IMG/VR virus record: IMGVR_UViG_3300046005_000373
Span: 1-30,177 of that record
Length of the DNA: 30,177 bases
Direction: 5' to 3' (one strand)
Source: a virus
Shown here: positions 3,007 to 16,322 of the stretch, piece by piece
How positions within the stretch are numbered: position 1 is the first letter of the stretch
Layout: every line of letters begins with the position of its first letter
The notes under the pieces: generated by a model
Database searches by the model: none
What the model saw: only the letters and a program-made list of their open reading frames with translations
Told to the model about the DNA's origin: nothing
Made by a program: the position numbers and the translations under genes

Positions 3007-3675
3007 ATGAATATTTTTGTTATTACATCAATCTTGCGACCTAAGATTGGTATTATTGATTTTGAAATCAGATATCAACAAACACTCAAAACAATCCAAT
3101 CTATTAAACATAAAGCTCCAGGTTCAATCATTCTTTTATTGGATTCATCACCTGAACTAGAAGACTACAAGATTGAACGTTTAAGAAAAGAAGTAGATTA
3201 TTTTATATCTTTATCCAATCATACTCTTGCAATCGATTTAGCAACAAAAGGCTTAAAAAGTCCAGGTGAGTGTTACATTATGATTGTTGCTTTAGATGTT
3301 ATTAGAAATCTGTCATTGACAAACATCAATAGGGTGTTTAAAATTACAGGACGTGCTGAGTTAACCGATAACTTTCATATCGAAGATTATGATAATCCAG
3401 AAATGCAAGGAAAATATGTTTTCAAAACACCTGTCGTTTCTTGGATGACATCACAATTAAAATTGGTAGATACTCGTTTATGGTCGTTTGATTATTCTAT
3501 GTTGGAAGATGCTGATAAATTAATACGTCAAACATACGAAGATTGCATCTCAAAACCACAGTTTGATTTAGAGCATACATATTATAGACTGTTAGATAAA
3601 ACTAAATTATTTGAAAAAGATGTAATTGGATTAACATGCCAATTAGCATCTTGTGGGACAATTATAAATGAATAA
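3007..3675 (+). CDS. Putative glycosyltransferase-like protein
   Basis: A 222-residue soluble protein beginning with a hydrophobic strand (MNIFVITSILRP), an alpha/beta layout and the segment RVFKITGRAELTDNF near residues 110-124. 'K(I)xGR' segments of this kind occur in viral and capsule-associated glycosyltransferase-like proteins. No clear DxD motif is present, so the donor sugar and fold are uncertain. It overlaps the next gene, a family 2 glycosyltransferase, by eight bases, and lies in a run of five sugar-related genes. The context supports a role in building a glycan on the virion, the DNA or the host surface. Confidence 0.5.
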   Translation: MNIFVITSILRPKIGIIDFEIRYQQTLKTIQSIKHKAPGSIILLLDSSPELEDYKIERLRKEVDYFISLSNHTLAIDLATKGLKSPGECYIMIVALDVIRNLSLTNINRVFKITGRAELTDNFHIEDYDNPEMQGKYVFKTPVVSWMTSQLKLVDTRLWSFDYSMLEDADKLIRQTYEDCISKPQFDLEHTYYRLLDKTKLFEKDVIGLTCQLASCGTIINE

Positions 3676-4390
3676 TCCATTAGTGACAATTATCACACCA
3701 ACAATCGGCACAAAGCATTTAGAACAATGTGTCGATTCTGTAGCAAACCAAACATATAAAAATATTCAGCACTTAATAGTTGTTGATGGTAAAGAGCATA
3801 GAAAGAAAGCAGAACAACAAATTCATTCAGATGCTGATGTTTTAGTATTACCATACAACACAGGTCATGACCAATATAATGGTCATCGAATATACGGCGC
3901 CTCTACTTTCTTAGCTAAAGGTGCTTACTATATTTTCTTAGATGAGGATAATTGGTTAGAACCTAATCATGTTGAAAGTTTAGTCAATTCAATAGATAAT
4001 AATGGTTGGGCTTACACCTTACGTAAAATAGTTGACACCGAAGGTAATTACATATGTAATGATGATTGTGAATCACTAGGTAATTGGCAGTCAATTTTAA
4101 ATGATTATTTTGTTGATGTTAATTGTTATATCGTTCGTAGAGATATAGCTTTGAATTTTGCTCCTGGTTGGTATCGTAGAGCTAGACACCCACAAGAACA
4201 ACCGGAAGTGGACCGCTTATTGAGTGGATGGTTAAGACAAAATAATTTCAAAGCAAATTGTACCGGAGATTATACGGTAAATTATCGAGTTGCTAGTCGA
4301 GCGGACTCCGTAACAGGTGAGTTTTTCTTAAAAGGTAATGAATATATGAAACAAAGATTGAACGGAGAATTTCCATGGCGAAAGATTTAA
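3668..4390 (+). CDS. Family 2 (GT-A) glycosyltransferase
   Basis: A 240-residue GT2-type transferase. The N-terminus reads VTIITPTIGTKHLEQCVDSV and continues to NQTYKNIQHLIVVDG, the standard nucleotide-binding start of GT2 enzymes. The metal/nucleotide-sugar motif is FLDEDNWLEP (DED at residues 92-94), and the C-terminal part (DRLLSGWLRQN) is compatible with acceptor binding. It has no membrane anchor, so it probably acts in the cytoplasm. It overlaps both neighbours. Family assignment is strong; donor and acceptor are unknown. Confidence 0.85.
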   Translation: MNNPLVTIITPTIGTKHLEQCVDSVANQTYKNIQHLIVVDGKEHRKKAEQQIHSDADVLVLPYNTGHDQYNGHRIYGASTFLAKGAYYIFLDEDNWLEPNHVESLVNSIDNNGWAYTLRKIVDTEGNYICNDDCESLGNWQSILNDYFVDVNCYIVRRDIALNFAPGWYRRARHPQEQPEVDRLLSGWLRQNNFKANCTGDYTVNYRVASRADSVTGEFFLKGNEYMKQRLNGEFPWRKI

Positions 4391-5247
4391 TTATTGGTGT
4401 ATGTTCTAATTACAAGTTTAACGATGTGTTGCCTTGGGTTAGGTCATCTAAAGAATGTGGTTTCAAAGGTGATGTTGTTTTAGTCACCATTGAAATGGAC
4501 GAAGAAACAAATAAACAGATTGAAGCGGAAGGTGTAATTGTTGTTCGTGCTAAACGAAACAGTGACATGATGATACACATGGAAAGGTTCTATCATGTCC
4601 ATAAGTATTTGTCTGAAAATCCAGATTATGTATATGTCGTTTCTACAGATGTGCGAGATGTAATCTTCCAAAACGACCCGTCTGAATGGTTTGAATTCTT
4701 TACCAAAGGAATCGTTTCTTCGGGTGAAGCAATCTTGATTAAAGATGAGGAATGGAATAGAAATAACATAATCAAAAACTTCGGCGAATATTTCTATAAT
4801 GAATTCAAAGAGAAGATTGTCCAATGTGTTGGTGTCTTAGGCGGGCAATCACATTACATGAAAGATTTGTGTTTTTACATTTATCAAATGTCGCTGAATC
4901 GTCCAGATTGGGTTGCAGACCAAGCAGCTTACAATGTTATTGTTCATAGTAGTCCTTGGAAACAATTAACACACTTTGCTAATTTAGCAGATGGATGGGC
5001 TATAAATGCTCATGTAACCAACTATGACCGTTTGATGGATCACTTCAGCCCCTATCTGTTGGAAGAAAGGCCCGTATTTGAAAATGGACGAGTTAAGGTT
5101 AGAAAAACAGGGCTCGAATTCTATATTGTCCATCAATATGACCGTGTCAAAGAATGGAAGAAATACTATGAAGAAAAATATGGTATAAAAATCAATTCAC
5201 AATATACACCAGATGAAGATGTAATTGTTATTAATACAGGAGTTTAA
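4375..5247 (+). CDS. Putative glycosyltransferase with DVRD motif
   Basis: A 290-residue soluble protein with a GT-A-like beginning (LIIGVCSNYKF, then GFKGDVVLVTIEMD). A candidate nucleotide-sugar/metal motif, VVSTDVRDVIFQND, lies at residues 88-101 with acids at D92 and D95. The later segments GVLGGQSHYMKDLC and DQAAYNVIVHSS resemble acceptor or donor pockets of transferases that add single sugars. The start ATG overlaps the previous gene by 16 bases and follows a GGAG ribosome binding site. The stop is one base from the epimerase start. Glycosyltransferase is the likeliest class; specificity is unknown. Confidence 0.65.
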   Translation: MAKDLIIGVCSNYKFNDVLPWVRSSKECGFKGDVVLVTIEMDEETNKQIEAEGVIVVRAKRNSDMMIHMERFYHVHKYLSENPDYVYVVSTDVRDVIFQNDPSEWFEFFTKGIVSSGEAILIKDEEWNRNNIIKNFGEYFYNEFKEKIVQCVGVLGGQSHYMKDLCFYIYQMSLNRPDWVADQAAYNVIVHSSPWKQLTHFANLADGWAINAHVTNYDRLMDHFSPYLLEERPVFENGRVKVRKTGLEFYIVHQYDRVKEWKKYYEEKYGIKINSQYTPDEDVIVINTGV

Positions 5248-5248
5248 T

Positions 5249-6139
5249 ATGAAAGTTATTGTTACCGGCGGATGTGGATTTATTGGTTCAAATCTGGTTG
5301 ACAAATTGATAGATATGGGTTATGATGTATCAGTAATTGATGATGAATCAGCAACAGCACATGAACGTTTCTATTATAATAAAAAAGCAAGATATTACAA
5401 ATATGATATATGTGATTATGTGGATGTTCGTCCTTTATTTGAAAATGTCCAATATGTTTTCCATTTGGCAGCCGAATCACGTATTCAACCAACATTAGAA
5501 AATCCAATTGGTGCAGTTAAGACCAATACTCTAGGCACTGCTACTATTTTACAATGTGCTAAGGAAGCTGGCGTTAAACGAGTAATGTATTCTTCCACAT
5601 CTTCAGCTTATGGTTTGAAAAATACACCACCATTATCTGAGAATATGATTGAAGACTGTCTAAATCCTTACTCAGTATCTAAAGTTGCTGGTGAGAAATT
5701 ATGTCACATGTATACGGAATTGTTTGGACTGGAAACTATTTCATTCAGATATTTCAATGTGTATGGACCGAGAGAACCTAGACGTGGTCAATATGCGCCA
5801 GTGATTGGTCTATTTTTACGTCAACGGGCAGCTAATGAACCATTGACTGTTGTTGGAGATGGCACACAAAAACGAGATTTTACTCATGTCAATGATGTTG
5901 TACAAGCGAACATCACATGTATGACAGAAGGTAAACCTGGAGAATTATACAATGTTGGCACCGGTACAAATCATTCTGTGTTAGAATTAGCAAACATGAT
6001 TTCTAAAGACATTTCTTTTATTCCTGCTAGACCAGGTGAAGCAAAAGAATCTCTAGCCAATAATGACCGATTAATGGGCCTAGGTTGGAGACCAACTATT
6101 AAACTTGAAGATTATATTAAGGAACAATTGAATGGGTAA
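5249..6139 (+). CDS. NAD-dependent sugar-nucleotide epimerase/dehydratase (extended SDR)
   Basis: A GalE/WbpP-like extended short-chain dehydrogenase of 296 residues, full length for the family. The start is the ATG at 5249, preceded by CAGGAG; an in-frame TTG 24 bases upstream is less likely. The Rossmann motif TGGCGFIGS is at residues 6-14, the HLAAES segment near 72-77, the serine strand MYSSTSSAYG at 113-122, and the catalytic pair is Y141/K145 (NPYSVSK). The RYFNVYGPREPRRGQYAPVI region is typical of UDP-sugar epimerases. It probably supplies an epimerised nucleotide sugar to the flanking transferases. The exact substrate (UDP-glucose, UDP-GlcNAc or another) is not determinable. Confidence 0.93.
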   Translation: MKVIVTGGCGFIGSNLVDKLIDMGYDVSVIDDESATAHERFYYNKKARYYKYDICDYVDVRPLFENVQYVFHLAAESRIQPTLENPIGAVKTNTLGTATILQCAKEAGVKRVMYSSTSSAYGLKNTPPLSENMIEDCLNPYSVSKVAGEKLCHMYTELFGLETISFRYFNVYGPREPRRGQYAPVIGLFLRQRAANEPLTVVGDGTQKRDFTHVNDVVQANITCMTEGKPGELYNVGTGTNHSVLELANMISKDISFIPARPGEAKESLANNDRLMGLGWRPTIKLEDYIKEQLNG

Positions 6140-6944
6140 TATTTCTATTGTAACGGCCTTCTTTGATATCGGCCGAGAAACTTGGACACAAGATAAAGGA
6201 CTTCCACATTATCTGTATCGTCCATTACAAACGTACTTCGACAGGTTTGCTAACATGGCACAACTTGATAATGAAATGACCATTTTTACAACACCAGATT
6301 TGGTTGATAAAGTATGGGAATATCGTAAAGGTAAAGAAGATAAGACAACCGTTACTGCGGTTGATTATGCTTCTGAATTTAAAGATTTACGGTTAGCGAT
6401 TGCTTCGATTCAGACTAATCCGGAATATCAAAAGAAGATTAGTCCAAATCAAATTCGTAATCCGGAATATTGGTCTGCCGATTATGTATTGGTCAACACA
6501 TTGAAAGCTCACTTTGTCAATCGAGCAATCACCAATGGTTTTGCTACTAAAGAATTGGTTGCGTGGGTTGATTTTGGATATTGTCGTAATGTGGAAGAAT
6601 TTATCAAAGGTACAGAATGGAATTATGATTTTGACCCAACTAAGATGACATTGTTTAGATTAAAAGAATTTGACCAAAGTAAATCCATTTTAGATTTAAT
6701 TGTTAATAATGATGTTCATATGACGGGTGGTGCTATTGTTGGTGGCAAAACAGTTTGGCCAACATTTGATTCGTTAGTTCAACACGCATTTAATGAATTG
6801 TATAAACACGATTTGGTCGATGATGACCAAACATTATTGTTAATGGCATCGTTGTTGAAACCGGAAATATTCAAAATATATGATGTTACACACGGAGAAG
6901 ATTGGTTACGTCATAATTCAGTTTTTAATAAATATAATACATAA
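6132..6944 (+). CDS. HtrL/YibB-like (WlaTC-type) putative glycosyltransferase
   Basis: A 270-residue protein whose start, ISIVTAFFDIGRETW, followed by a YF..F..MAQLDNEMTIFT segment, fits the HtrL/YibB family. That family is found in surface-polysaccharide loci and thought to be glycosyltransferase-like. Other matching features are the central VLVNTLKAHFVNRAI helix, the WVDFGYCRN segment that could bind metal or sugar, and MTGGAIVGGK. It overlaps the epimerase by eight bases and closes the sugar module. Its stop codon is embedded in a late-promoter-like box for the next operon. Family assignment is moderate; the reaction is not established from sequence. Confidence 0.65.
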   Translation: MGNISIVTAFFDIGRETWTQDKGLPHYLYRPLQTYFDRFANMAQLDNEMTIFTTPDLVDKVWEYRKGKEDKTTVTAVDYASEFKDLRLAIASIQTNPEYQKKISPNQIRNPEYWSADYVLVNTLKAHFVNRAITNGFATKELVAWVDFGYCRNVEEFIKGTEWNYDFDPTKMTLFRLKEFDQSKSILDLIVNNDVHMTGGAIVGGKTVWPTFDSLVQHAFNELYKHDLVDDDQTLLLMASLLKPEIFKIYDVTHGEDWLRHNSVFNKYNT

Positions 6945-6980: not shown

Positions 6981-8177
6981 ATGAAAAATATAAAACACTT
7001 CCTAAAAGAACAGGCCGAAGGTGAAGGCACAAAACTCAAGCATATTGAGCACCTAGAAGATTTACCGTTAAATTCAGGTAAACAAGGATTGGAACAATCC
7101 GTTGGAGCTTTGAGGCAAGTCCAACAACATATTAAAGCTGGTAGAAAGAATTCGGATTTAACAATGAAACATGATGGTTCGCCAAGTTTAGTTTATGGCC
7201 ATCATCCAGATACGGGTAAGTTTTTTGTTGCTTCCAAATCAGCATTTAATGTAACACCAAAAATCAATTATACTGAAGATGATATACAGAAAAACCACGG
7301 CCATGCTCCTGGTTTAGTTGAAAAGTTAAAATCAGCTTTACAACATTTACCTAAAGTTGTTCCATCTAAAGGTGTATATCAAGGCGATGTCATGTTTACA
7401 CATAATGACATTGACAAGCATGCTGGTAAATTGCATTTTAGACCAAATACAATTAAATATTCTGTTCCAGAAAAGTCAACTGAAGGCCAACAAATTGGCA
7501 AAGCTAAGTTAGGATTATATACTCATACCGAATATAGGGGTAAAGATTCAGGTTCAATGAACGCCCACTATGACCCCAATATGAGTGATTTTAAAAATCA
7601 TCCAGATGTGTATCATAGGGAACCTGGCCATGACACATCAAAAGTTAAATTATCTGATGAACATGAACACAGATTGAATCATCATATAAATTCAGCATTA
7701 GCCACTTATAGCAAACATGGCGATGATATGTTTAATTCTTTAGATAAGAAAATTGGCAAATCTAACATAAAAGACCACACTAAAACATATATCAATAGTA
7801 CAGTTAGAACCGGTGAAACGCCAAATCCTGAAGGTTTATCTAATCATTTAATTAAACATTACGGTAAACAAATTGATAGTTTGAAAACAGATAAATCTAA
7901 AAATGTTAAATCTGATGAATTGAAATCTCATTTAAATCATGTTGAAGACAACAAACATCATTTTGAAGGTTTCTTTAAAATGCACCATCATTTACAACAG
8001 GCTAAAAACGTATTAGTTGGCGCATTATCTCAACACACCGGAGGCCTAGAACATAGTTACAATAATAAAAAAGTCAAACCTGAAGGTTTTGTTGTAAACC
8101 ACAAAGGAACTCCTATCAAACTAAATGATAGGGCTGAGTTTAATAAATTAAATTTCGAAAGAAGTGCAGAAAGATGA
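6981..8177 (+). CDS. Capsid-targeted ligase-like nucleotidyltransferase (predicted)
   Basis: A 398-residue protein starting MKNIKHFLKE|Q, which resembles the T4 capsid-targeting leader with an (L/I)xE cleavage site at residues 8-10. The body carries an order of motifs like covalent nucleotidyltransferases (DNA/RNA ligases). KHDG at 63-66 (motif I, candidate AMP-accepting lysine K63) sits in LTMKHDGSPSLVYG. A motif III-like GVYQGDVMF is at 131-139 and a IIIa-like LGLYTHTEY at 177-185. EGFVVNHKG (motif IV) is at 368-376 and IKLNDRAEFNKLN (motif V) at 379-391. The long insert between IIIa and IV is rich in His and Lys. Similar proteins recur in T4-like aquatic phages under DUF names. Adenylation activity and ligase function are inferred from motifs only. 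The gene overlaps the next start (ATGA). Confidence 0.6.
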   Translation: MKNIKHFLKEQAEGEGTKLKHIEHLEDLPLNSGKQGLEQSVGALRQVQQHIKAGRKNSDLTMKHDGSPSLVYGHHPDTGKFFVASKSAFNVTPKINYTEDDIQKNHGHAPGLVEKLKSALQHLPKVVPSKGVYQGDVMFTHNDIDKHAGKLHFRPNTIKYSVPEKSTEGQQIGKAKLGLYTHTEYRGKDSGSMNAHYDPNMSDFKNHPDVYHREPGHDTSKVKLSDEHEHRLNHHINSALATYSKHGDDMFNSLDKKIGKSNIKDHTKTYINSTVRTGETPNPEGLSNHLIKHYGKQIDSLKTDKSKNVKSDELKSHLNHVEDNKHHFEGFFKMHHHLQQAKNVLVGALSQHTGGLEHSYNNKKVKPEGFVVNHKGTPIKLNDRAEFNKLNFERSAER

Positions 8178-9253
8178 TAATAAAATTTAGTACATATATT
8201 GATGAATCTAAAAGATTTGAGAATTACTATCTCAATCTTTTGTCTGAAGAAAAAGCAATCGATGAATCTGGATCAAATAATGATACAAAAGGAAAGTTGC
8301 ATGAACTCTTAGTTGGATATCATTTAAATGGTGGCAAACACATGGACAAACATGTGGATGAATATAAAAATACTCCACAACAAGCACATGATTTATTAAT
8401 GAAAAATGTTAGTGAAGACCAGTATAAAAAAATATACGATAGAGCTAAGGAAACAGCTGACCATATTAAATCTGAATTAAAAAAATCAGGCAAAACAATT
8501 TCTCATGTACATTGGACATCCAAACCTGGTGATATTGAAGCTTCAACGAGTGTGCCTTCTACACAGAAACAGGATGCTTCTGATATTATGTTACATACGG
8601 TTGATAAAAAAGGTAAAAAAGGTTATACTGGCGTTAGTTTAAAAGTATCCGATGAATACAGTAAACATGTTCCGGTTTCAAATGCGGGCCAATCGGCTAT
8701 GTATCCTGGTGTCGACAATGATATTAAAGCTCATAAAGAGAAACTGTATAAATCTTTTCCTGAATTAAAGAATTTGACTAATGAAAAATTAAGAAAAGAA
8801 TGGTTAAAATCTGATCCAGAACGAAAAGATAAAATTAATAATATAAATTTAGCTCATAGACGAGTTTTAACTGCAAAAGCTCATGAACATTTATTGAGTA
8901 TGGGGAATCATGAATTGATAGACCATGTTAAAACACATGTGTTGCAGAGTAATCCAACACCATTACAACAAGCTGGCCATGAACATATTCGCCATACTGT
9001 TTATGCTGGAAAGAAAAAAGAAGGCGGCGGAAATAAATTTCATTCATATGACCCTGCGGAACATTTTAAAAATATATTAGATGGTAGTAAAAAAATTCAT
9101 GTAACTAATCCTTCTGGTACCACACAATTGCATTATCATTATGAAGATGAAAACGGCAATTTGCATCATTTTGCTTCACAACGATTCAAATCTAATTCAA
9201 ATAGCGATCCATTCAGTTCAATGAAATCATCAGGAATTGCTGCCGGAGACTAA
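8174..9253 (+). CDS. Capsid-targeted PD-(D/E)XK nuclease-like protein (predicted)
   Basis: A 359-residue protein with the leader MIIKFSTYIDE|S, ending in an IxE prohead-protease-like site, plus further LSE and IDE sites at residues 23-31. The body has a possible PD-(D/E)XK core. A conserved-looking acidic helix, GKLHELLVGYHL (E44), comes first. A D-containing strand, DASDIML (D137), is followed after a hairpin by GVSLKVSD, where S155-L156-K157 could be the (D/E/S)xK element. The rest is rich in His, Lys and Asn and probably flexible. The nuclease assignment is by motif spacing and is tentative. It overlaps the ligase-like gene by four bases and abuts the HAD gene. Confidence 0.5.
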   Translation: MIIKFSTYIDESKRFENYYLNLLSEEKAIDESGSNNDTKGKLHELLVGYHLNGGKHMDKHVDEYKNTPQQAHDLLMKNVSEDQYKKIYDRAKETADHIKSELKKSGKTISHVHWTSKPGDIEASTSVPSTQKQDASDIMLHTVDKKGKKGYTGVSLKVSDEYSKHVPVSNAGQSAMYPGVDNDIKAHKEKLYKSFPELKNLTNEKLRKEWLKSDPERKDKINNINLAHRRVLTAKAHEHLLSMGNHELIDHVKTHVLQSNPTPLQQAGHEHIRHTVYAGKKKEGGGNKFHSYDPAEHFKNILDGSKKIHVTNPSGTTQLHYHYEDENGNLHHFASQRFKSNSNSDPFSSMKSSGIAAGD

Positions 9254-9871
9254 ATGAAAAACTTCAAAAATTTTATCACTGAATCATCTGGTGGTCTACA
9301 TATGTTTGATGTAGATGATACTCTTTTCCATACTACTGCTCAAATTCATGTTAAAGACAAATCAGGTAAATCGGTTCAAACATTAAGTAATAGTGAATTC
9401 AATACACATTCATTACCTAAAGACCATCATTACGATTTTAGTGAATTCAGAGATGCTGATAAATTTAATAAAGAATCTAAACCAATCTCTAAAATGATTG
9501 ATAAAATTAAAAAAGTTCATAAGAAGGTTCGTGGAAAAGAAGGAAGTAAGGTCATACTAAATACAGCAAGGGCTGACTTTGATAATAAAGAAAAGTTCTT
9601 AGATAAGTTCAGACAACACGGTATTGACATTGATAAGATTCATGTTGAACGTGCTGGTAATATTCCTGGAGATGAACACCCAGCTGAGAAGAAAGCACAA
9701 GTTGTGAGAAATCATCTTGCTAGAAATGATTATAAACACGTTAGTTTATATGATGATAGTACAAGTAATTTAAATAGGTTGTTGAAAATGAAACAAGAAT
9801 ATCCTCTTGTTAAATTTCACGCATATCATGTTCAACCAAATGGAAGTGTAAAGAAACATAACAATGAGTAA
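9254..9871 (+). CDS. Capsid-targeted HAD-superfamily phosphatase
   Basis: A 205-residue protein with the leader MKNFKNFITE|S, an IxE-type site at residues 8-10. It then has all four HAD motifs. Motif I is FDVDDTLF (nucleophile D19, acid/base D21) and motif II is LNTARAD (T104). The motif III lysine is K146 or K147 in AEKKAQVV, and motif IV is LYDDST (D167/D168). A small cap-like insert lies between motifs I and II. The layout resembles polynucleotide 3'-phosphatase or 5'-nucleotidase domains, such as that of T4 Pnkp, but the substrate is not readable. It begins directly after the nuclease-like gene's stop and overlaps the kinase-fusion gene by eight bases, so the set is probably coordinately made. 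Confidence 0.8.
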   Translation: MKNFKNFITESSGGLHMFDVDDTLFHTTAQIHVKDKSGKSVQTLSNSEFNTHSLPKDHHYDFSEFRDADKFNKESKPISKMIDKIKKVHKKVRGKEGSKVILNTARADFDNKEKFLDKFRQHGIDIDKIHVERAGNIPGDEHPAEKKAQVVRNHLARNDYKHVSLYDDSTSNLNRLLKMKQEYPLVKFHAYHVQPNGSVKKHNNE

Positions 9872-11714
9872 AATTAAATCCTTTATTGAACTTATGGAAG
9901 AAGAAACCAAATCAGTAGCAGTCTTGTTTGGTCGGATGAATCCGCCTACAAAGGGCCATGAAGAAAATGTCAATGGCCTAAAAGACTTAGCTAAGAAACA
10001 CAACGCTGACCATTTGGTTGTGGCTTCTCGTTCTCACGACCCCAAAAAGAATCCATTATCTCCAGAAGATAAAGAGAAACACTTAAAACGGGCATTTCCA
10101 GGTACCAATATTAAAGTTGCTACCAAAGAACAACCAACAATTTTACATCATGCATCTGCATTGAGTGGTCAAGGATATTCTCATTTACATGTAGTTGCTG
10201 GTTCCGACCGAGTCGATGAATACAAACGATTACTGAATCAATACAATGGAGTTCCAGGTAAACACGGAACTTACAATTTTAAAAAGATTACAGTTCAATC
10301 TACAGGCGAAAGAAAACAAGGTGTATCTGGTACAGATATGCGTAATCATGTTAAGAATAATGATTATAATTCTTTCAAATCGAATTTACCATCATCTACA
10401 CAAAATAACGAGAAGCATTCTAAAGAATTATTCCATGACGTTAAAAAAGGTATGGGCATCCATGAAAATGTAAATCGTGGGATGTTTAAAGCTTTATTCT
10501 TAGTTGGTGGTCCGGGTTCAGGTAAAGATGTTATCATACATGAAGCCGTAGCTGAACGAAATGCTGTAGAAATCAATTCCAACAAAGCATATGATTTCTT
10601 ATCTGATAAAAAGAAACTATCAGAAGAAACTAAAGACCACCAATACAATGCTATTCGTAATCGGTCAGCATTGGTCATCAATGGCGCATCTGATGATAAA
10701 GATAAAATTACTTCCATTAGAGAAGAATTAGAAGAATTGGGTTATACTTCAATGATGGTGTTCGTCACTACTACAAATGAAGTATCTCAAAATAGAAATA
10801 ACCAACATTCGAGAGTTATTTCTGAACAAATTAGAAACGAAAAGTGGGTAAAATCTCAAGAGAATTTAAATCACTTCTACGATGAGTTTGAATACTTTTT
10901 AGAATTCGATAATTCAGTAAATTTACAAAACTCAAACATTCTAATTAAAGAGGCTAAACAGTCTGAAATCAGTGAAATCTGTAATGAGATATCCTATTTC
11001 TTTAAAACTAAAGCTTATAACGAGAGTGCTACCAATTGGTTACGCTCACATGGAAAAATAAACATCAACGAAGATGTTAATACATTATTTGAAAAGGAAC
11101 TACACCATGACAACTATACTGACATTCGTAAAAAATATAATCACAAAAATTACTCAAGTCTTAAAGCCAAACATAGCCCATCCGCCAAAGGCGTGCGAGC
11201 AGAAAACAATGCCCCAGTCGACCAAATGCTCAGAAAAGCCGGCAAAATCGATGACGTCCGAGACGGCGACATCCGCGGCAATAACGGCTACGCCTTTAGA
11301 ACCTACGAAGAAACGAGGCAGGAACAGACGGAGCCGACGCTCAAAATCAACCCAGAGCCAAAAGAACCAAAGTTCAACACCGACAAAGAAAGTCCAAAAC
11401 TCAAACGAAAAGCGGGGGTAAATCTATTACCTGGCAAATCAATTAACGGCACTGGTGTTGGTCCAACATACGATACTCGCCAACAAGGCGGAGTATATCC
11501 AATGGGTGGATTGGGAAATACAACATATCGTGAAAGTTTCAATTCATTTAGAACGAAACTAAAACAAGAATCTATTGATGACCCAGGTGCTTCAGATATG
11601 GGGACATTTGGTGGTATGGGTAACGGTGCCAATAAAGAACCATTACAAACACAATTAGATAAATTAGCAACAACGTCAGAAAATAAACCAACAAAAAAGA
11701 AAAGAAATAAATAG
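9864..11714 (+). CDS. Capsid-targeted nucleotidylyltransferase-P-loop kinase fusion
   Basis: A 616-residue fusion. The leader is MSKIKSFIELME|E, with an LxE site at residues 10-12. Residues 17-170 form a cytidylyltransferase-fold domain with FGRMNPPTKGH (22-32, a variant HxGH box with T in place of the first H), VVAGSDR (110-116) and VSGTDMR (154-160, the ISxTxxR-type box). Residues 207-360 form a P-loop kinase domain with Walker A GGPGSGKD (215-222; Asp instead of Ser/Thr), then LVINGASDD and RNNQHSR segments as in Pnkp or zeta-toxin-like kinases. The domain order recalls NadR (NMN adenylyltransferase plus ribosylnicotinamide kinase), but the substrate is open. Residues 380-616 look disordered; residues about 433-518 use strikingly GC-rich codons. 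The C-terminus ends in Lys-rich sequence. Confidence 0.72.
   Translation: MSKIKSFIELMEEETKSVAVLFGRMNPPTKGHEENVNGLKDLAKKHNADHLVVASRSHDPKKNPLSPEDKEKHLKRAFPGTNIKVATKEQPTILHHASALSGQGYSHLHVVAGSDRVDEYKRLLNQYNGVPGKHGTYNFKKITVQSTGERKQGVSGTDMRNHVKNNDYNSFKSNLPSSTQNNEKHSKELFHDVKKGMGIHENVNRGMFKALFLVGGPGSGKDVIIHEAVAERNAVEINSNKAYDFLSDKKKLSEETKDHQYNAIRNRSALVINGASDDKDKITSIREELEELGYTSMMVFVTTTNEVSQNRNNQHSRVISEQIRNEKWVKSQENLNHFYDEFEYFLEFDNSVNLQNSNILIKEAKQSEISEICNEISYFFKTKAYNESATNWLRSHGKININEDVNTLFEKELHHDNYTDIRKKYNHKNYSSLKAKHSPSAKGVRAENNAPVDQMLRKAGKIDDVRDGDIRGNNGYAFRTYEETRQEQTEPTLKINPEPKEPKFNTDKESPKLKRKAGVNLLPGKSINGTGVGPTYDTRQQGGVYPMGGLGNTTYRESFNSFRTKLKQESIDDPGASDMGTFGGMGNGANKEPLQTQLDKLATTSENKPTKKKRNK
11161..11417 (+). 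other. Local GC-rich, C-ending-codon patch inside a coding region
   Basis: About 257 bases in the 3' third of the fusion gene differ sharply from the surrounding AT-rich DNA. Codons such as GCC, GGC, GAC, AAC, ATC, GTC and CTC dominate, while the flanking codons end in A or T. The reading frame stays open through the patch and the protein continues into a typical phage C-terminus. This suggests a recently acquired or recombined in-frame segment, or a segment under different nucleotide selection. Boundaries are judged by eye, within about 20 bases. Confidence 0.7.
11706..11713 (+). promoter_or_regulatory. Late-promoter-like box AATAAATA
   Basis: AATAAATA, a one-base variant of the T4 late box TATAAATA, overlaps the TAG stop of the preceding gene and lies 40 bases before the ATG at 11753. 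That start has a strong AGGAG ribosome binding site. The placement over a stop codon matches the copies at 6940 and 14115. Confidence 0.5.
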
Positions 11715-11752
11715 GTAATTAAATGTTCACAGCGAACTAACAGGAGAATAAA

Positions 11753-13666
11753 ATGTTTCAAAAATTTGGTAAAAGTATCCCACAGTCATTAGTAGACGCC
11801 GTTTCTGGCATCATGTCAGAAGCAAAAGCTGATGATTTACCTCCAATCGATAAAGATGCGGCGGCCGCTCGTAAAGCTCGTCAAGCTCGATTAGACGCTA
11901 TCGAAGATGCTAAGGCGGAAAAAGATTCTGGTGAAAAGAAATCTTCTGTTGTTCGTAAAGTTGCTGGTTCTGCTTATGGTGGCGCTAAACAAAAAGATCC
12001 AGAAGATATGGAAGAATCTGCTGGCAATCCAGGTCCAGTGAGAAAACACATTCCAACACCAATGCAAAATCCAAGCAAAGAAGATATGGCAGCGTGGCAT
12101 GCAAAACAAAAAGAAAAACATGCTTACGAACCTAAAAAAGAAGAATTGATTGGCGGCCAAAAGAAACTAGACAAGAACCATAACGGCAAACTAGATGCCG
12201 ATGATTTTAAAAAACTTCGTAAAGAAGAGGAAGACCTTGAAGAAGCCAAAGATATAGTGACTAAAGATGCTTCAGGTAAAGTAACTTCTTGGTCACATGA
12301 AGGTGATTGGAAGAAATCAACAGCTAAAAAGAATCCAAAAGGTATTGCACCACACCTAAGTGACCTTGCTCGCCGCAAAACAATTAAAATGGCTAAAGAA
12401 ACAATGATGGGTAAAGCCGGTTGTACTTCAGAAGAAGCAGAAATTGAAGAATCACGTGGCCATAAAATCATTGCAAATAAATTAGCACAAATTGACCGTA
12501 TGAGTTCTGGTGTTGCACCTGACCATAATACTAATGTTCAAAGCACTAAAGATAAAATCAAAGACGCAAGTAACATTGGTAAAGTTGAAATTGTCACTCA
12601 AAAAGATACCACAATATCAGGTAAGGACAATGAAGCTGACCAAATGGAAACAAAACACAAATTGAATAAAATTTCACATGGTTACGGTAATGTTGTTCAT
12701 AAAGAAGAAGTTGTAAATGAATTAACCAAAAAGACTTTGAGTTCATATATTAAAAAAGCATCCAGTTCAAGTGATGAGCGCTCTGCTTCAAACTTAGCAT
12801 CGAAAGCCGCGGCAAAATTAGCAGCTGATGATGGTAAAGATGATGGTGAGAAGGATGATATGAAATCATTCCAACGTTCTAAAGGAATTGGTCGTGCTGT
12901 TGACCGTTTAGCTAAAGAAGAAGTTGAATTGACCGAAAGTCACAATTTCACTCCTAATGTGGATTCACATGTGAAATCATTAGGTCACGGTAAAATTGGT
13001 TTCGTTATGGACCAACAAAAAGATGGTTTAATTGCTATACATCACCAAGACGGCGGTAAACACCATGTAGCTATTTTCCATAAAGACAAATTGGTTCACA
13101 CTTCTACACATCCTGATTTTGAAACTGCTAGTGGTCAAGCTCACACATCATTGACAACTAAAAAAGGTATTAAAGCTTTGTCATTGAATGAAGAAGTTGA
13201 AGAGGTGGATGAGGCTCTATTTGATAGACTACCTTCTAGTAAAGCAGGCCAAAACTATATTGATAAAAAACGGGCTGAACGTGATGTAGAACATAAAAAA
13301 CAAGACCCAAAAATGTCAAAAATGTATGCTAAGAATATGGTAGATACACATAAAGCTTCTAAGAAAGCTGCAGAACGTGGCATCAAAAAGGATCCAGAAG
13401 ATTTTGGTTGGAAAGTTCGTAACGGTGTTCAACGTGGTAAACTACCAGAAGAAGTTCAAATTGATGAAACAGCTACACTAAATCAATACATCAAATCTTT
13501 AGGTTATGACCCAGAGCATTTAGATACCAACAAGAAAGTAATGTATTCAAAAACTAATGCTTTTAAATCATATGCCGCAAGACAAGAAGCGTTATATGAC
13601 GCCGGCCAAAAAGGTACACAAGATATTGAAGCCGGTATGTCTCCAAGTGCCACAGCTAGAGGTTAA
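11753..13666 (+). CDS. Modular virion-associated protein with EF-hand and protease-site-like linkers
   Basis: A 637-residue, highly charged, mostly flexible protein preceded by AGGAG. The N-terminus (MFQKFGKSIPQSLVDAV) leads to a possible cleavage site, IMSE|A, at residue 23. A textbook EF-hand calcium loop, DKNHNGKLDADD, occupies residues 140-151. Further modules begin at about 165 (DIVTKDASGKVTSW), 234 (RGHKIIANKL), 323 (LTKKTLSSYIKKA), 396 (HNFTPNVDSHV), 488 (LFDRLPSSKAG) and 573 (TLNQYIKSLGYDP). Nearly every module is preceded by an acidic linker ending in xxE: LEE|A, IEE|S, VNE|L, LTE|S, VDE|A, IDE|T. Similar modular proteins occur in T4-like aquatic phages. A head-interior or scaffold-like role and processing by the prohead protease are inferred. 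The last module is related to the start of the next gene. Confidence 0.7.
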   Translation: MFQKFGKSIPQSLVDAVSGIMSEAKADDLPPIDKDAAAARKARQARLDAIEDAKAEKDSGEKKSSVVRKVAGSAYGGAKQKDPEDMEESAGNPGPVRKHIPTPMQNPSKEDMAAWHAKQKEKHAYEPKKEELIGGQKKLDKNHNGKLDADDFKKLRKEEEDLEEAKDIVTKDASGKVTSWSHEGDWKKSTAKKNPKGIAPHLSDLARRKTIKMAKETMMGKAGCTSEEAEIEESRGHKIIANKLAQIDRMSSGVAPDHNTNVQSTKDKIKDASNIGKVEIVTQKDTTISGKDNEADQMETKHKLNKISHGYGNVVHKEEVVNELTKKTLSSYIKKASSSSDERSASNLASKAAAKLAADDGKDDGEKDDMKSFQRSKGIGRAVDRLAKEEVELTESHNFTPNVDSHVKSLGHGKIGFVMDQQKDGLIAIHHQDGGKHHVAIFHKDKLVHTSTHPDFETASGQAHTSLTTKKGIKALSLNEEVEEVDEALFDRLPSSKAGQNYIDKKRAERDVEHKKQDPKMSKMYAKNMVDTHKASKKAAERGIKKDPEDFGWKVRNGVQRGKLPEEVQIDETATLNQYIKSLGYDPEHLDTNKKVMYSKTNAFKSYAARQEALYDAGQKGTQDIEAGMSPSATARG

Positions 13667-13667
13667 T

Positions 13668-14123
13668 ATGGAACAAATTAATGAATACAGTAAAGAGGTC
13701 GTAGATAGATATTTAAAATCTATGGGTTACGACCCTCAACATATTGACCGAGATAAACGTATGGCTTTCACTAAAACTATTCGGTTTCAACAGTTCGCTC
13801 AACGTATGGGTGAATCGGTTGTTTTATCCAAGCCAGCACAGGTCATTAAAGAAATCTTTAAAAAGAAAAGAATGGTTGAGGATTTATATGACCATGAAAA
13901 AGATGATAAAGATGGTACGACATACGGTAAGAAACCAAAATTAAATAGCGCCAAGGAAGAAGATAACATTGGCGATGACAAGACTCAGGCAGCTGCTGTA
14001 TTGAGTGGTGGAACTACTTTAACGGGTCAGAAAAGAGATACCGTTTCGATAGACCCGGTTATTAAAAAACCAAAACAAGGTACGCCTAGCTCAGATACAG
14101 GCGATATTAAATATAATAAATAG
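13668..14123 (+). CDS. Small protein sharing a module with the upstream modular protein
   Basis: A 151-residue protein. The chosen ATG lies one base after the previous stop; a longer in-frame opening to 13557 would run through the upstream gene and is unlikely. Residues 15-47 (RYLKSMGYDPQHIDRDKR onward) match residues 579-611 of the preceding protein (QYIKSLGYDPEHLDTNKK onward), so one module has been duplicated or split off. The rest is charged and low in complexity (DDKDGTTYGKKPKL, SIDPVIKKPKQGTP) and likely disordered. Function is unknown; probably a virion-associated partner of its neighbour. Confidence 0.7.
   Translation: MEQINEYSKEVVDRYLKSMGYDPQHIDRDKRMAFTKTIRFQQFAQRMGESVVLSKPAQVIKEIFKKKRMVEDLYDHEKDDKDGTTYGKKPKLNSAKEEDNIGDDKTQAAAVLSGGTTLTGQKRDTVSIDPVIKKPKQGTPSSDTGDIKYNK
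14115..14122 (+). promoter_or_regulatory. Late-promoter-like box AATAAATA
   Basis: AATAAATA overlaps the TAG stop of the preceding gene and lies 34 bases before the ATG at 14157, which has a strong TAAGGAG ribosome binding site. With the terminator at 14866 it would make the Ig-like protein gene a self-contained late transcription unit. Confidence 0.55.
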
Positions 14124-14156
14124 TAATACAAATCGCAAGATTAAGGAGAAATTTAA

Positions 14157-14849
14157 ATGGCTTTAAACCAAGGTAATTATGATTCAGCTGCAAACACCCC
14201 ATTGTGGGCAGCGGCAACCGTTGAAAGAGCACCAACAACAGCAGAAGTTGCAACACTATATGGTAATACATCATCAGGTGCTTTCTTTGCTGGAGAAACA
14301 GTCGGCGTTTTCGCTGTAGATAGTAACGAAGCACTAGTAAACGGCCATGTAGGTTCTGGTTGGGTTAGACGAGTGACAGGTTCAGGTGGTCGTGCTGGAC
14401 GAGTAACAGAAGAACTTCTTTCAGCTGTTGCTGTATTCCGTACAGACAGTGCTGCAGATGATGCTGTTTATCCGGATGCTAAAATTTCAATTGGAACACA
14501 ACCTTCAGCTGCTACAGTTCGTGCTAATACCGCTAATGCTAATACTGCTACATTCACAGTAGTTGTATCAGATGTACAACCAGTTGGTTCTTCTGTATCA
14601 TACGTATGGCAAATGAATACTGCTGACGGTGCATTAGGTTGGACAAACATCTTAAATGGTGCTGGTACACAACGTGGTAACACAACATTTGCTGGTAACA
14701 CATCTGCTACACTATCTGTATCACCTGCAAATACAAGTGCAAACTTACTAGTGTTCCGTGTAACATCTACTGCTACTCCACCAGCAGGTATCACAAATGC
14801 TACAGCAACATCAGTAACATCTTCAAACGCTCAAATTACAATCTTGTAA
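14157..14849 (+). CDS. Ig-like domain virion structural/decoration protein
   Basis: A 230-residue protein rich in Ala, Thr, Ser, Val and Asn with almost no Lys, unlike its charged neighbours. The first 110 residues form an unknown N-terminal domain (start MALNQGNYDSAANTPLW). Residues about 111-230 read as an immunoglobulin-like beta sandwich: ISIGTQPSAATV, then TATFTVVVSDV, VSYVWQMN, a WTNI turn, SATLSVSP, LVFRVTSTA and SNAQITIL. The tryptophan strand and alternating Thr/Val strands fit Ig/Big-type domains on phage capsids and tails. A strong ribosome binding site, a late-type promoter box and an efficient terminator suggest high late expression. Capsid decoration is a guess; a tail-associated role is also possible. 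Confidence 0.72.
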   Translation: MALNQGNYDSAANTPLWAAATVERAPTTAEVATLYGNTSSGAFFAGETVGVFAVDSNEALVNGHVGSGWVRRVTGSGGRAGRVTEELLSAVAVFRTDSAADDAVYPDAKISIGTQPSAATVRANTANANTATFTVVVSDVQPVGSSVSYVWQMNTADGALGWTNILNGAGTQRGNTTFAGNTSATLSVSPANTSANLLVFRVTSTATPPAGITNATATSVTSSNAQITIL

Positions 14850-14865
14850 TAAGTGTGTACTAAAT

Positions 14866-14891
14866 AAAGGGGACCTCGGTCCCCTTTTTTT
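14866..14891 (+). terminator. Rho-independent terminator
   Basis: A 9-bp stem (AAAGGGGAC paired with GTCCCCTTT) closes a CTCG loop and runs into seven T residues. It is 17 bases after the stop of the Ig-like protein gene and is the clearest intrinsic terminator in the window. Confidence 0.93.
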
Positions 14892-14909
14892 AACTTAAGA
14901 ATAATAATA

Positions 14910-15296
14910 ATGTTTGATGACCTAAATGATGATAACTTTTTAATATATGCCATGAAATCTTATGTTTCACCGCATTGTATTATGTCTGAGTTCGAAGGTG
15001 ATATGAAACGGACTAAATACTTGAAGAAGTTGTTTCGTAGGTTTAAAGCATCTGGTGACTTAAAAGAACGTTTAATATTAAATCATATAATTTTAATATA
15101 CAATGTCTTTGATGCTGAATCGGCAACCAGAATATTGTTTTATAGAACAGATGAGCGAGATTACGATATATTGAAAACATTTCTAATATATCTAAATCTT
15201 ATGCCAACCCGTATTAATGGTATCAGAGGCAAGAATATTGAATCCTCTGATATTATGTTAGACCTATCAATTGCAGAAATATTGAGGAAACTATGA
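14910..15296 (+). CDS. Conserved T4-like phage protein, function unknown
   Basis: A 128-residue, helical protein beginning MFDDLNDDNFLIYAMKSY. Notable segments are MKRTKYLKKLFRRFK, LKERLILNHIILIYNVFDAE and LFYRTDERDYDILKTFLIYL. I recognise this pattern as a conserved small protein of aquatic T4-like phages, usually near head genes, without a known function. It has no capsid-targeting leader. It follows the terminator, and its last four bases overlap the next gene (ATGA), so it heads the next short operon. Confidence 0.7.
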   Translation: MFDDLNDDNFLIYAMKSYVSPHCIMSEFEGDMKRTKYLKKLFRRFKASGDLKERLILNHIILIYNVFDAESATRILFYRTDERDYDILKTFLIYLNLMPTRINGIRGKNIESSDIMLDLSIAEILRKL

Positions 15297-15679
15297 AATC
15301 ATTTAAAGCACATTTAGAAGAATCCTGTTGGAAAGGATATAAAGCCATTGGTGTAAAAGACAAAGGTGGCCGTAAAGTTCCTAATTGTGTTCCCGTTTCA
15401 GAACAACCAACTGAACCAGAATCTAAACTCACACACAAACGTGGTCATCAAATTTCAAGACATGTTCATAGTTTCAAACCTATTCCTTCTATTAAAACAG
15501 AAGATGTTGATAAAAAAGATACAATCACTTTTGATATACCGTTGTTAATTCGTGTATTGGAATTAACTAGAGAAGAAATCAAAACCGATGCAGATTTACA
15601 TCGTGTCGTTGAACGATTGATTGATATCCGCAACAAAGGTGTATTGACAATGGATGATTACGAGGATATTGCAAAATGA
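15293..15679 (+). CDS. Predicted capsid-targeted protein, function unknown
   Basis: A 128-residue protein with the leader MKSFKAHLEE|S, matching the T4 internal-protein targeting form with an LxE site at residues 8-10. It continues with CWKGYKAIGVKDKGGRKVPN and a CVPVSE segment, a recurrent phage motif in which a Gly/Lys-rich turn is flanked by cysteines. The C-terminal half (about residues 80-128) is a helical domain ending VVERLIDIRNKGVLTMDDYE. Function is unknown. It overlaps both neighbours by four bases in a run of three leader-bearing genes. Confidence 0.65.
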   Translation: MKSFKAHLEESCWKGYKAIGVKDKGGRKVPNCVPVSEQPTEPESKLTHKRGHQISRHVHSFKPIPSIKTEDVDKKDTITFDIPLLIRVLELTREEIKTDADLHRVVERLIDIRNKGVLTMDDYEDIAK

Positions 15680-15978
15680 AATCGTTTAATGAATTTTTAA
15701 ATGAATCTGCGGCCTGGACTCGTTCAGCTGGGAAGAATCCCGAAGGTGGATTAAATCAAAAAGGTGTCGACTCTTATCGTAGAGAGAATCCAGGTTCAAA
15801 ATTAAAAACAGCCGTTACTACTAAACCATCTAAATTGGATCCTGATAGTAAATCTGCTAAGCGTAGAAAATCATTCTGTGCTAGAATGGGTGGAATGAAG
15901 AAACGCCTGACTTCTGCAAAAACTGCAAAGGATCCAGATTCTCGTATTAATAAAGCTCTAAGAAAGTGGAACTGCTAA
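15676..15978 (+). CDS. Predicted capsid-targeted basic protein (conserved phage family)
   Basis: A 100-residue, very basic protein with the leader MKSFNEFLNE|S, an LxE site at residues 8-10. The rest (AWTRSAGKNPEGGLNQKG, then VDSYRRENPGSKLKTAV, KSAKRRKSFCARMGGMKK and DPDSRINKALRKWNC) matches a very conserved small family seen in many phages. I recall this family as a DUF, but am not certain of the number. The high Arg/Lys content and invariant-looking C and W residues suggest nucleic-acid binding. If packaged, it could coat or accompany the DNA. It overlaps its neighbours by four bases and one base. Confidence 0.75.
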   Translation: MKSFNEFLNESAAWTRSAGKNPEGGLNQKGVDSYRRENPGSKLKTAVTTKPSKLDPDSKSAKRRKSFCARMGGMKKRLTSAKTAKDPDSRINKALRKWNC

Positions 15979-16322
15979 TGAAAACATTTAAAAATTACAT
16001 CATAGAAATGGATAAATCACAAGACCCACCTGGTCGAGATGACCCATATGATTACGGTAAAGGTAAATGGCACAAAGGCAAAGCGTTAACTAAAGATAAA
16101 GCAATTAATACTGCTCATGATGTATTAAGCAAAGTTTTCAATGAACCAAAAAAGAAAGAAATCAAAGAAGATGGTGTTGTATCTAGTGGTTCGGCCGGTC
16201 CAACTAACGTAACTGGCCCCCAATCAGGTACAGACCCAATTAGTGCTACAGCTAGACGTATGGATAATATACGTAAAGTAAGAAAAACAAAATTATTTAC
16301 TAGAAAATTACCCCAAGCATAA
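15978..16322 (+). CDS. Predicted capsid-targeted small protein, function unknown
   Basis: A 114-residue protein. The ATG at 15978, sharing TAATG with the previous stop, gives the leader MKTFKNYIIE|M with an IxE site at residues 8-10. An upstream GTG at 15966 would bury this leader and is not preferred. The body is low in complexity and basic (DDPYDYGKGKWHKGKALTK, then GPTNVTGPQSGTDPISATAR), ending in a Lys/Arg-rich tail. Function is unknown. It is the last of the leader-bearing genes before the lysis cassette. Confidence 0.6.
   Translation: MKTFKNYIIEMDKSQDPPGRDDPYDYGKGKWHKGKALTKDKAINTAHDVLSKVFNEPKKKEIKEDGVVSSGSAGPTNVTGPQSGTDPISATARRMDNIRKVRKTKLFTRKLPQA

Follow-up and report, generated by a model that had tools for sequence, protein, structure and literature searches.

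The T4-type internal proteins (IPs) carry a 10-residue N-terminal leader ending in (L/I)xE, with key positions 4, 7, 8 and 10, on otherwise unrelated mature parts. Mutagenesis has shown that targeting depends mainly on residues 4 and 7 and processing on residues 8 and 10 (PMC9026906); in the T4 record the sequence is MKTYQEFIAE for ipIII and MAKINELLRE for gp24. The T4 ADP-ribosyltransferase Alt, an enzyme, likewise travels in the head; it undergoes gp21 processing and is ejected into the host cell (PMC9026906), and phiKZ-like phages and SPN3US have many head ejection proteins, which are cut after a glutamate by the prohead protease and ejected (PMC9026906). Here we analyze a DNA fragment of 30,177 nucleotides from a marine T4-like virus (IMG/VR record IMGVR_UViG_3300046005_000373, positions 1-30,177; called the window in the following), which holds 42 genes and is not a complete genome. 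Seven of its proteins, named here by their start positions, begin with a leader of this kind (Table 1). We read these as T4-type capsid-targeting leaders on an enzyme-rich cargo and give this reading a probability of about 0.84. As the head assembles, the N-terminal ~10 residues, with aromatics at positions 4 and 7, would bind the prohead core and a gp21-type prohead protease would cut after the glutamate of the leader. The mature proteins would be kept inside the head alongside the DNA and would most likely pass into the host cell upon infection. For these seven proteins we infer cleavage, packaging, injection and function.

The original prediction that the seven proteins share a leader ending in (L/I)xE was borne out, all seven open reading frames and their leaders being found where it had placed them. 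Five of them (6981, 9254, 15293, 15676 and 15978) have the exact 10-residue form and two, 8174 and 9864, have looser versions. The leader of 8174 is one residue longer, and that of 9864 has its glutamate at position 12 or 13 and is the weakest of the seven; the orthologues of 9864 begin with MKSFLQLVEE or MKSFLELVEE. The strict pattern M-x-x-[F/I]-x-x-[F/Y/H]-[L/I]-x-E (10 residues) is found in 5 of the 42 window genes, while 2000 shuffles of residues 2-30 give an expectation of 0.022 and never more than 2, and a second pattern anchored on the glutamate occurs in 6 genes against 0.06 expected from shuffles. On the basis of these shuffles we reject a chance origin of the leaders. Since the strict pattern was written after inspecting these leaders, independent data sets, here the related contigs and cyanophage S-CREM2, weigh more than the window count. 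In 80 related viral contigs, selected via DUF6321, a family which often bears the leader itself, 45 of 1244 genes have the strict pattern against 0.46 expected. With later contigs included, about 20 families which are unrelated past the leader share it (22 clusters, a few of them likely false). The original prediction had also proposed comparing the leader with the residues behind it: among 86 distinct 10-residue leaders the positions left free by the pattern (2, 3, 5 and 6) hold 1.4-1.9 bits each and the 12 residues after the glutamate at most 0.78 bits each. The leader positions are thus the better conserved ones, and the information content falls steeply right past the glutamate. The nucleotide sequences of the seven leaders differ, so that the conservation lies at the amino-acid level.

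The strongly conserved positions 4, 7, 8 and 10 coincide with the T4 targeting and processing positions. No gp21 gene is present in the window, a 30-kb fragment; gp21 is co-encoded with a T4-type gp23 in six related contigs and is annotated in the isolates HTVC008M (a Pelagibacter phage), S-CREM2, S-SZBM1 and S-SCSM1. Because the gp23 of this group keeps (L/I)xE at the end of the propeptide (near the expected position in HTVC008M, S-CREM2, S-SCSM1, G002, G008 and G010, and as ILTE/AA in S-SZBM1), the prohead protease of the group probably has a T4-like specificity. In this the group would differ from the phiKZ-like phages and SPN3US, whose protease has diverged and whose cleavage motif is different. 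We regard both the leader itself and a T4-type targeting role for it as well supported. As a separate observation, a related contig encodes a 1105-residue multi-module protein with DUF6321 (L070:7334-10651) which has repeated QGVAE/QGVTE/QDVTE stretches between its parts, and these stretches suggest that a prohead protease of a different specificity may act there.

Published mass spectrometry of relatives tells which proteins are present in purified particles; it does not bear on whether their N-termini are mature or whether they are injected. In S-CREM2 (PMC10665884) four of the five annotated proteins with a strict leader were found in the virion against 48 of 214 other proteins (Fisher P 0.012), and among proteins of at least 70 residues not annotated as structural the enrichment of leaders in the virion has a P of 0.0012. 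The four are an S-adenosylmethionine (SAM) hydrolase (MKDFDSFLEE), a kinase (MKRFDAFLTE), a cytidylyltransferase (MKNFSSFLTE) and the small protein gp13 (MKDLHSFLTE); the fifth, undetected match is a 55-residue open reading frame. A Cas9-like virion protein of this phage carries LRFASFMAE, and gp136 carries MQTFSMFFSE. Cytidylyltransferases were also detected in the virions of S-SCSM1 (leader MKSFLQFLKE), S-SM1 (start MKKFSAFLNE; PMC3037559) and S-SZBM1 (MRFRQFIIE). The leader-bearing island of the window sits between the gp41 helicase region/mazG side and gp61, as in S-SCSM1, where 7 of the 10 genes of this island are virion-labelled, compared with 41 of 272 outside it (P 2e-4; by the labels of the record, which mark 48 proteins where the paper gives 45). 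The leaderless DUF6267 proteins S-CREM2 gp87 and S-SZBM1_141 were not detected in virions. Packaging of leader-bearing homologues is supported by these published data; leader-bearing orthologues of 6981, 8174, 9254 and 15978 were not seen in a virion. The S-CREM2 paper does not mention a leader or targeting (PMC10665884), the published reports consulted on the cyanophage virion cytidylyltransferases and kinases name neither a leader nor a mechanism of packaging, and in the open-access literature (subscription papers and preprints lay outside the search) we found no paper tying the leader to cyanophage virion enzymes.

Some observations weigh against targeting and packaging by the leader. HTVC008M has no strict leader among its 198 proteins although the island and gp21 are present; only loose variants are found, for example in gp126 (MLSFTGYSNLSE) and gp129 (MIPFILKE). 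In S-SZBM1 none of the four strict matches, gp191 and gp192 among them, is in the virion list, which comprises only 30 proteins; two of the four, endonuclease V and CP12, look like chance pattern matches, unlike gp191 and gp192. A clear N-terminal leader is missing from several of the island proteins detected in virions, and virion mass spectrometry may include carry-over, as the S-CREM2 authors state (PMC10665884). The T4-type reading, already part of the original prediction, is backed by the gp21 of relatives, the (L/I)xE in their gp23, the leader-bearing enzymes detected by mass spectrometry and the leaderless podovirus homologues. For the latter we used annotated podoviruses as the comparison set, and the DUF6321 proteins of four of these are leaderless; T7-type RNA polymerase, tried as a way to recognize podoviral contigs, matched nowhere and was uninformative.

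It could be that the five exact leaders alone are functional and that 8174 and 9864 show a chance or loose resemblance, as the poor conservation of the 8174 leader among orthologues and the displaced glutamate and differing orthologues of 9864 would suggest. We consider this doubtful, as few enzymes turn up in cyanophage virions as often as the cytidylyltransferase relatives do, and as the virion-detected S-SCSM1_90, which matches 8174 in island position, has motifs that we read as nuclease-like. Alternatively, the leader might bring its proteins to the prohead core, where they would help in assembly or in packing the DNA, without their being injected as effectors. This would suit DUF6321 and other small basic proteins; in P-SCSP1k the DUF6321 gene comes immediately behind that of the major capsid protein, and T4 IPIII influences head assembly (PMC9026906). 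Nuclease-, phosphatase-, kinase- and SAM-hydrolase-like cargo, however, has no obvious assembly role, and we hold this explanation to be unlikely. A further reading is that the common N-terminus reflects translation initiation or recombination and has no targeting role. This would fit the tight packing of the window genes, whose starts overlap stops, and the adjacent L060 genes with nearly identical leaders. It is highly improbable given that amino acids are conserved in seven leaders of differing nucleotide sequence, that the conserved residues are those of T4 targeting and processing, that the site recurs inside proteins at the borders of modules, where it cannot serve as a start signal, and that S-CREM2 virions are enriched in proteins with the leader.

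Table 1. Positions, leaders and basis of assignment of the seven leader-bearing proteins and of a multi-module protein
Protein	Coordinates	Strand	Leader (position)	Basis
DUF6267 protein	6981..8177	+	MKNIKHFLKE (6981-7010)	Pfam DUF6267, E 2e-96
Predicted PD-(D/E)XK nuclease	8174..9253	+	MIIKFSTYIDE (8174-8206)	Motif and fold matches
Haloacid dehalogenase (HAD)-type phosphatase	9254..9871	+	MKNFKNFITE (9254-9283)	FDVDDT motif
Cytidylyltransferase-like nucleotidyltransferase fused to P-loop kinase-like domain	9864..11714	+	MSKIKSFIELMEE, loose (9864-9902)	
Low-complexity multi-module protein	11753..13666	+		Site list
CW-x-G-Y Cys module protein	15293..15679	+	MKSFKAHLEE (15293-15322)	Leader, module
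DUF6321 small basic protein	15676..15978	+	MKSFNEFLNE (15676-15705)	Pfam, E 1e-20
Protein of 114 residues with just four relatives found	15978..16322	+	MKTFKNYIIE (15978-16007)	Leader

Under T4-type capsid targeting several of the cargo proteins would be enzymes. DUF6267 homologues have the leader in 38 of 45 cases in the related contigs, and K63, D65, E368, G369, V371 and K380 of 6981 are invariant. The predicted model of 6981 (predicted local distance difference test, pLDDT, 90.9), in which residues 1-17, the leader, are disordered, has no significant fold match in the PDB; ligases appear only among the non-significant matches. The KxDG, EGxV and downstream K motifs offer a lead, and only that, to a ligase-like nucleotidyltransferase. 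One match of DUF6267, to an anti-apoptotic protein, is limited to ~60 residues in a helical region, and we put it down to chance. In 8174 the motif DASDI..GVSLK is kept in most relatives, and the best fold matches are the restriction enzymes HinP1I (probability 0.96, E 3e-3) and MspI (0.92, E 8e-3), both with E values above 0.001. The virion-detected S-SCSM1_90 (L172:27459-28793; 444 residues) has the nuclease-like motifs ADIYVT...GVSLKK, and its island position matches that of 8174. The predicted phosphatase 9254 weakly matches the phage polynucleotide kinase family phrog_415 (E 5e-4), and 11 of its 24 homologues have the leader. Matches of 9864 are to phrog_3041 (E 1e-53) and Zeta_toxin (E 8e-5), and relatives were found in the virions of S-CREM2, S-SCSM1, S-SM1 and S-SZBM1. 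Sequence searches of the PDB with DUF6267, 9864 and HAD profiles returned nothing useful.

Taken together, the four enzyme-like proteins suggest nucleic-acid end processing as a putative common theme. The original prediction had spoken of a large, enzyme-rich set; the enzyme-like predicted cargo is indeed unusual, but the number is not exceptional, T-even relatives having at least ten internal proteins on record (PMC12373910). Tentatively, aquatic T4-like viruses may inject a pre-made nucleic-acid kit (nuclease, phosphatase, kinase/nucleotidyltransferase, ligase-like) whose members share one capsid-targeting leader, together with small-module polyproteins cut by the prohead protease within the head. 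Such a kit, if real, would repair or remodel DNA or RNA ends, or would attack the nucleic acid of the host, ahead of any viral gene expression.

The (L/I)xE site is found not only at N-termini. In the window DUF6321 (15676) makes up a protein of its own behind the leader. Where DUF6321 is internal, (L/I/M)xE lies within nine residues before the domain in 25 of 33 proteins against a background of 10%, most commonly with the glutamate three residues upstream. S-CREM2 gp137, with a C-terminal DUF6321 domain, was detected in the virion. Among the internal copies that lack the site are L018 and L032. Their contigs, 111 and 63 kb long, show neither gp21 nor gp23; as these contigs may be fragments, we take this joint absence as supportive only. 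Of 46 cases of the CW-x-G-Y module, 28 have an (L/I/M)xE in front, and two proteins containing the module, S-SZBM1_139 and S-CREM2 gp160, were virion-detected. In a 57-kb relative (L166) the 15293-type and DUF6321 modules are joined in one protein with the junction EHLDE/KSPAW. Leader-plus-module and polyprotein-plus-site thus look interchangeable in relatives, judging from their sequences. The protein 11753 probably belongs to the same island, and its island neighbours S-SZBM1_139 and S-SCSM1_92 were virion-detected. Possible internal sites follow residues 23 (IMSE), 164 (LEE), 233 (IEE), 395 (LTE), 480 (LNE) and 572 (IDE) and are suggestive of a polyprotein; the density of LxE in 11753 is no higher than in other proteins. 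We found no earlier description of such a modular leader/internal-site arrangement in the same open-access search, which did not extend to subscription papers and preprints.

The system would accordingly be the T4 capsid-targeting system with a different, partly enzymatic cargo. In contrast to the IPs, with which the mature window proteins show no sequence kinship within the searches made, several are predicted enzymes, and small modules are additionally found in fusions with multiple sites; the hosts and the virus family are others. Like Alt, they would bring enzymes as head cargo, which in the window is read from the leader, but several rather than one, and among the window proteins we identified no enzyme resembling Alt. 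The cytidylyltransferase/nicotinamide mononucleotide adenylyltransferase (NMNAT)-like and kinase proteins in the virions of S-CREM2, S-SCSM1, S-SM1 and S-SZBM1 share with the window a homologous nucleotidyltransferase domain and a similar leader, 9864 differing from the cyanophage cytidylyltransferases by its additional kinase-like domain. The leader would be a simple sequence rule for predicting head cargo of T4-like viruses of aquatic bacteria. It would account for the cytidylyltransferases, kinase and SAM hydrolase in the virion proteomes of cyanophages, for which carry-over had been thought possible, and phage families such as DUF6267 and DUF6321 become testable as injected cargo.

A ~35-residue second module, L-x-DGHG-x-WYD..VAKT..GKLKFYD, stands directly after the leader in otherwise unrelated virion enzymes (kinase, Cas9-like, cytidylyltransferase); its carriers are S-CREM2 gp14 and gp12, S-SCSM1_91, S-SM1_190, L074:4616-5887 and L075:2551-3711, and it is possibly a second packaging or binding module. 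Leader-like sequences also occur at the other end of proteins, RTFKEFLEYIE at the C-terminus of the virion-detected S-SCSM1_93 (L172:31627-31836) and FITYREFIAE near the C-terminus of S-SZBM1_194 (in L107). A DNA-level search of the window against phages gave a single 113-bp match, and PADLOC returned nothing useful. A glycosyltransferase and sugar-epimerase cassette at 3007-6944 separates the gp41 helicase region from the leader-bearing island. Four consecutive small genes with a nearly identical leader are found at L060:142-1752; in the third of these the leader is followed by YHGTTQSRADSI, and the protein may be ADP-ribosyltransferase-like.

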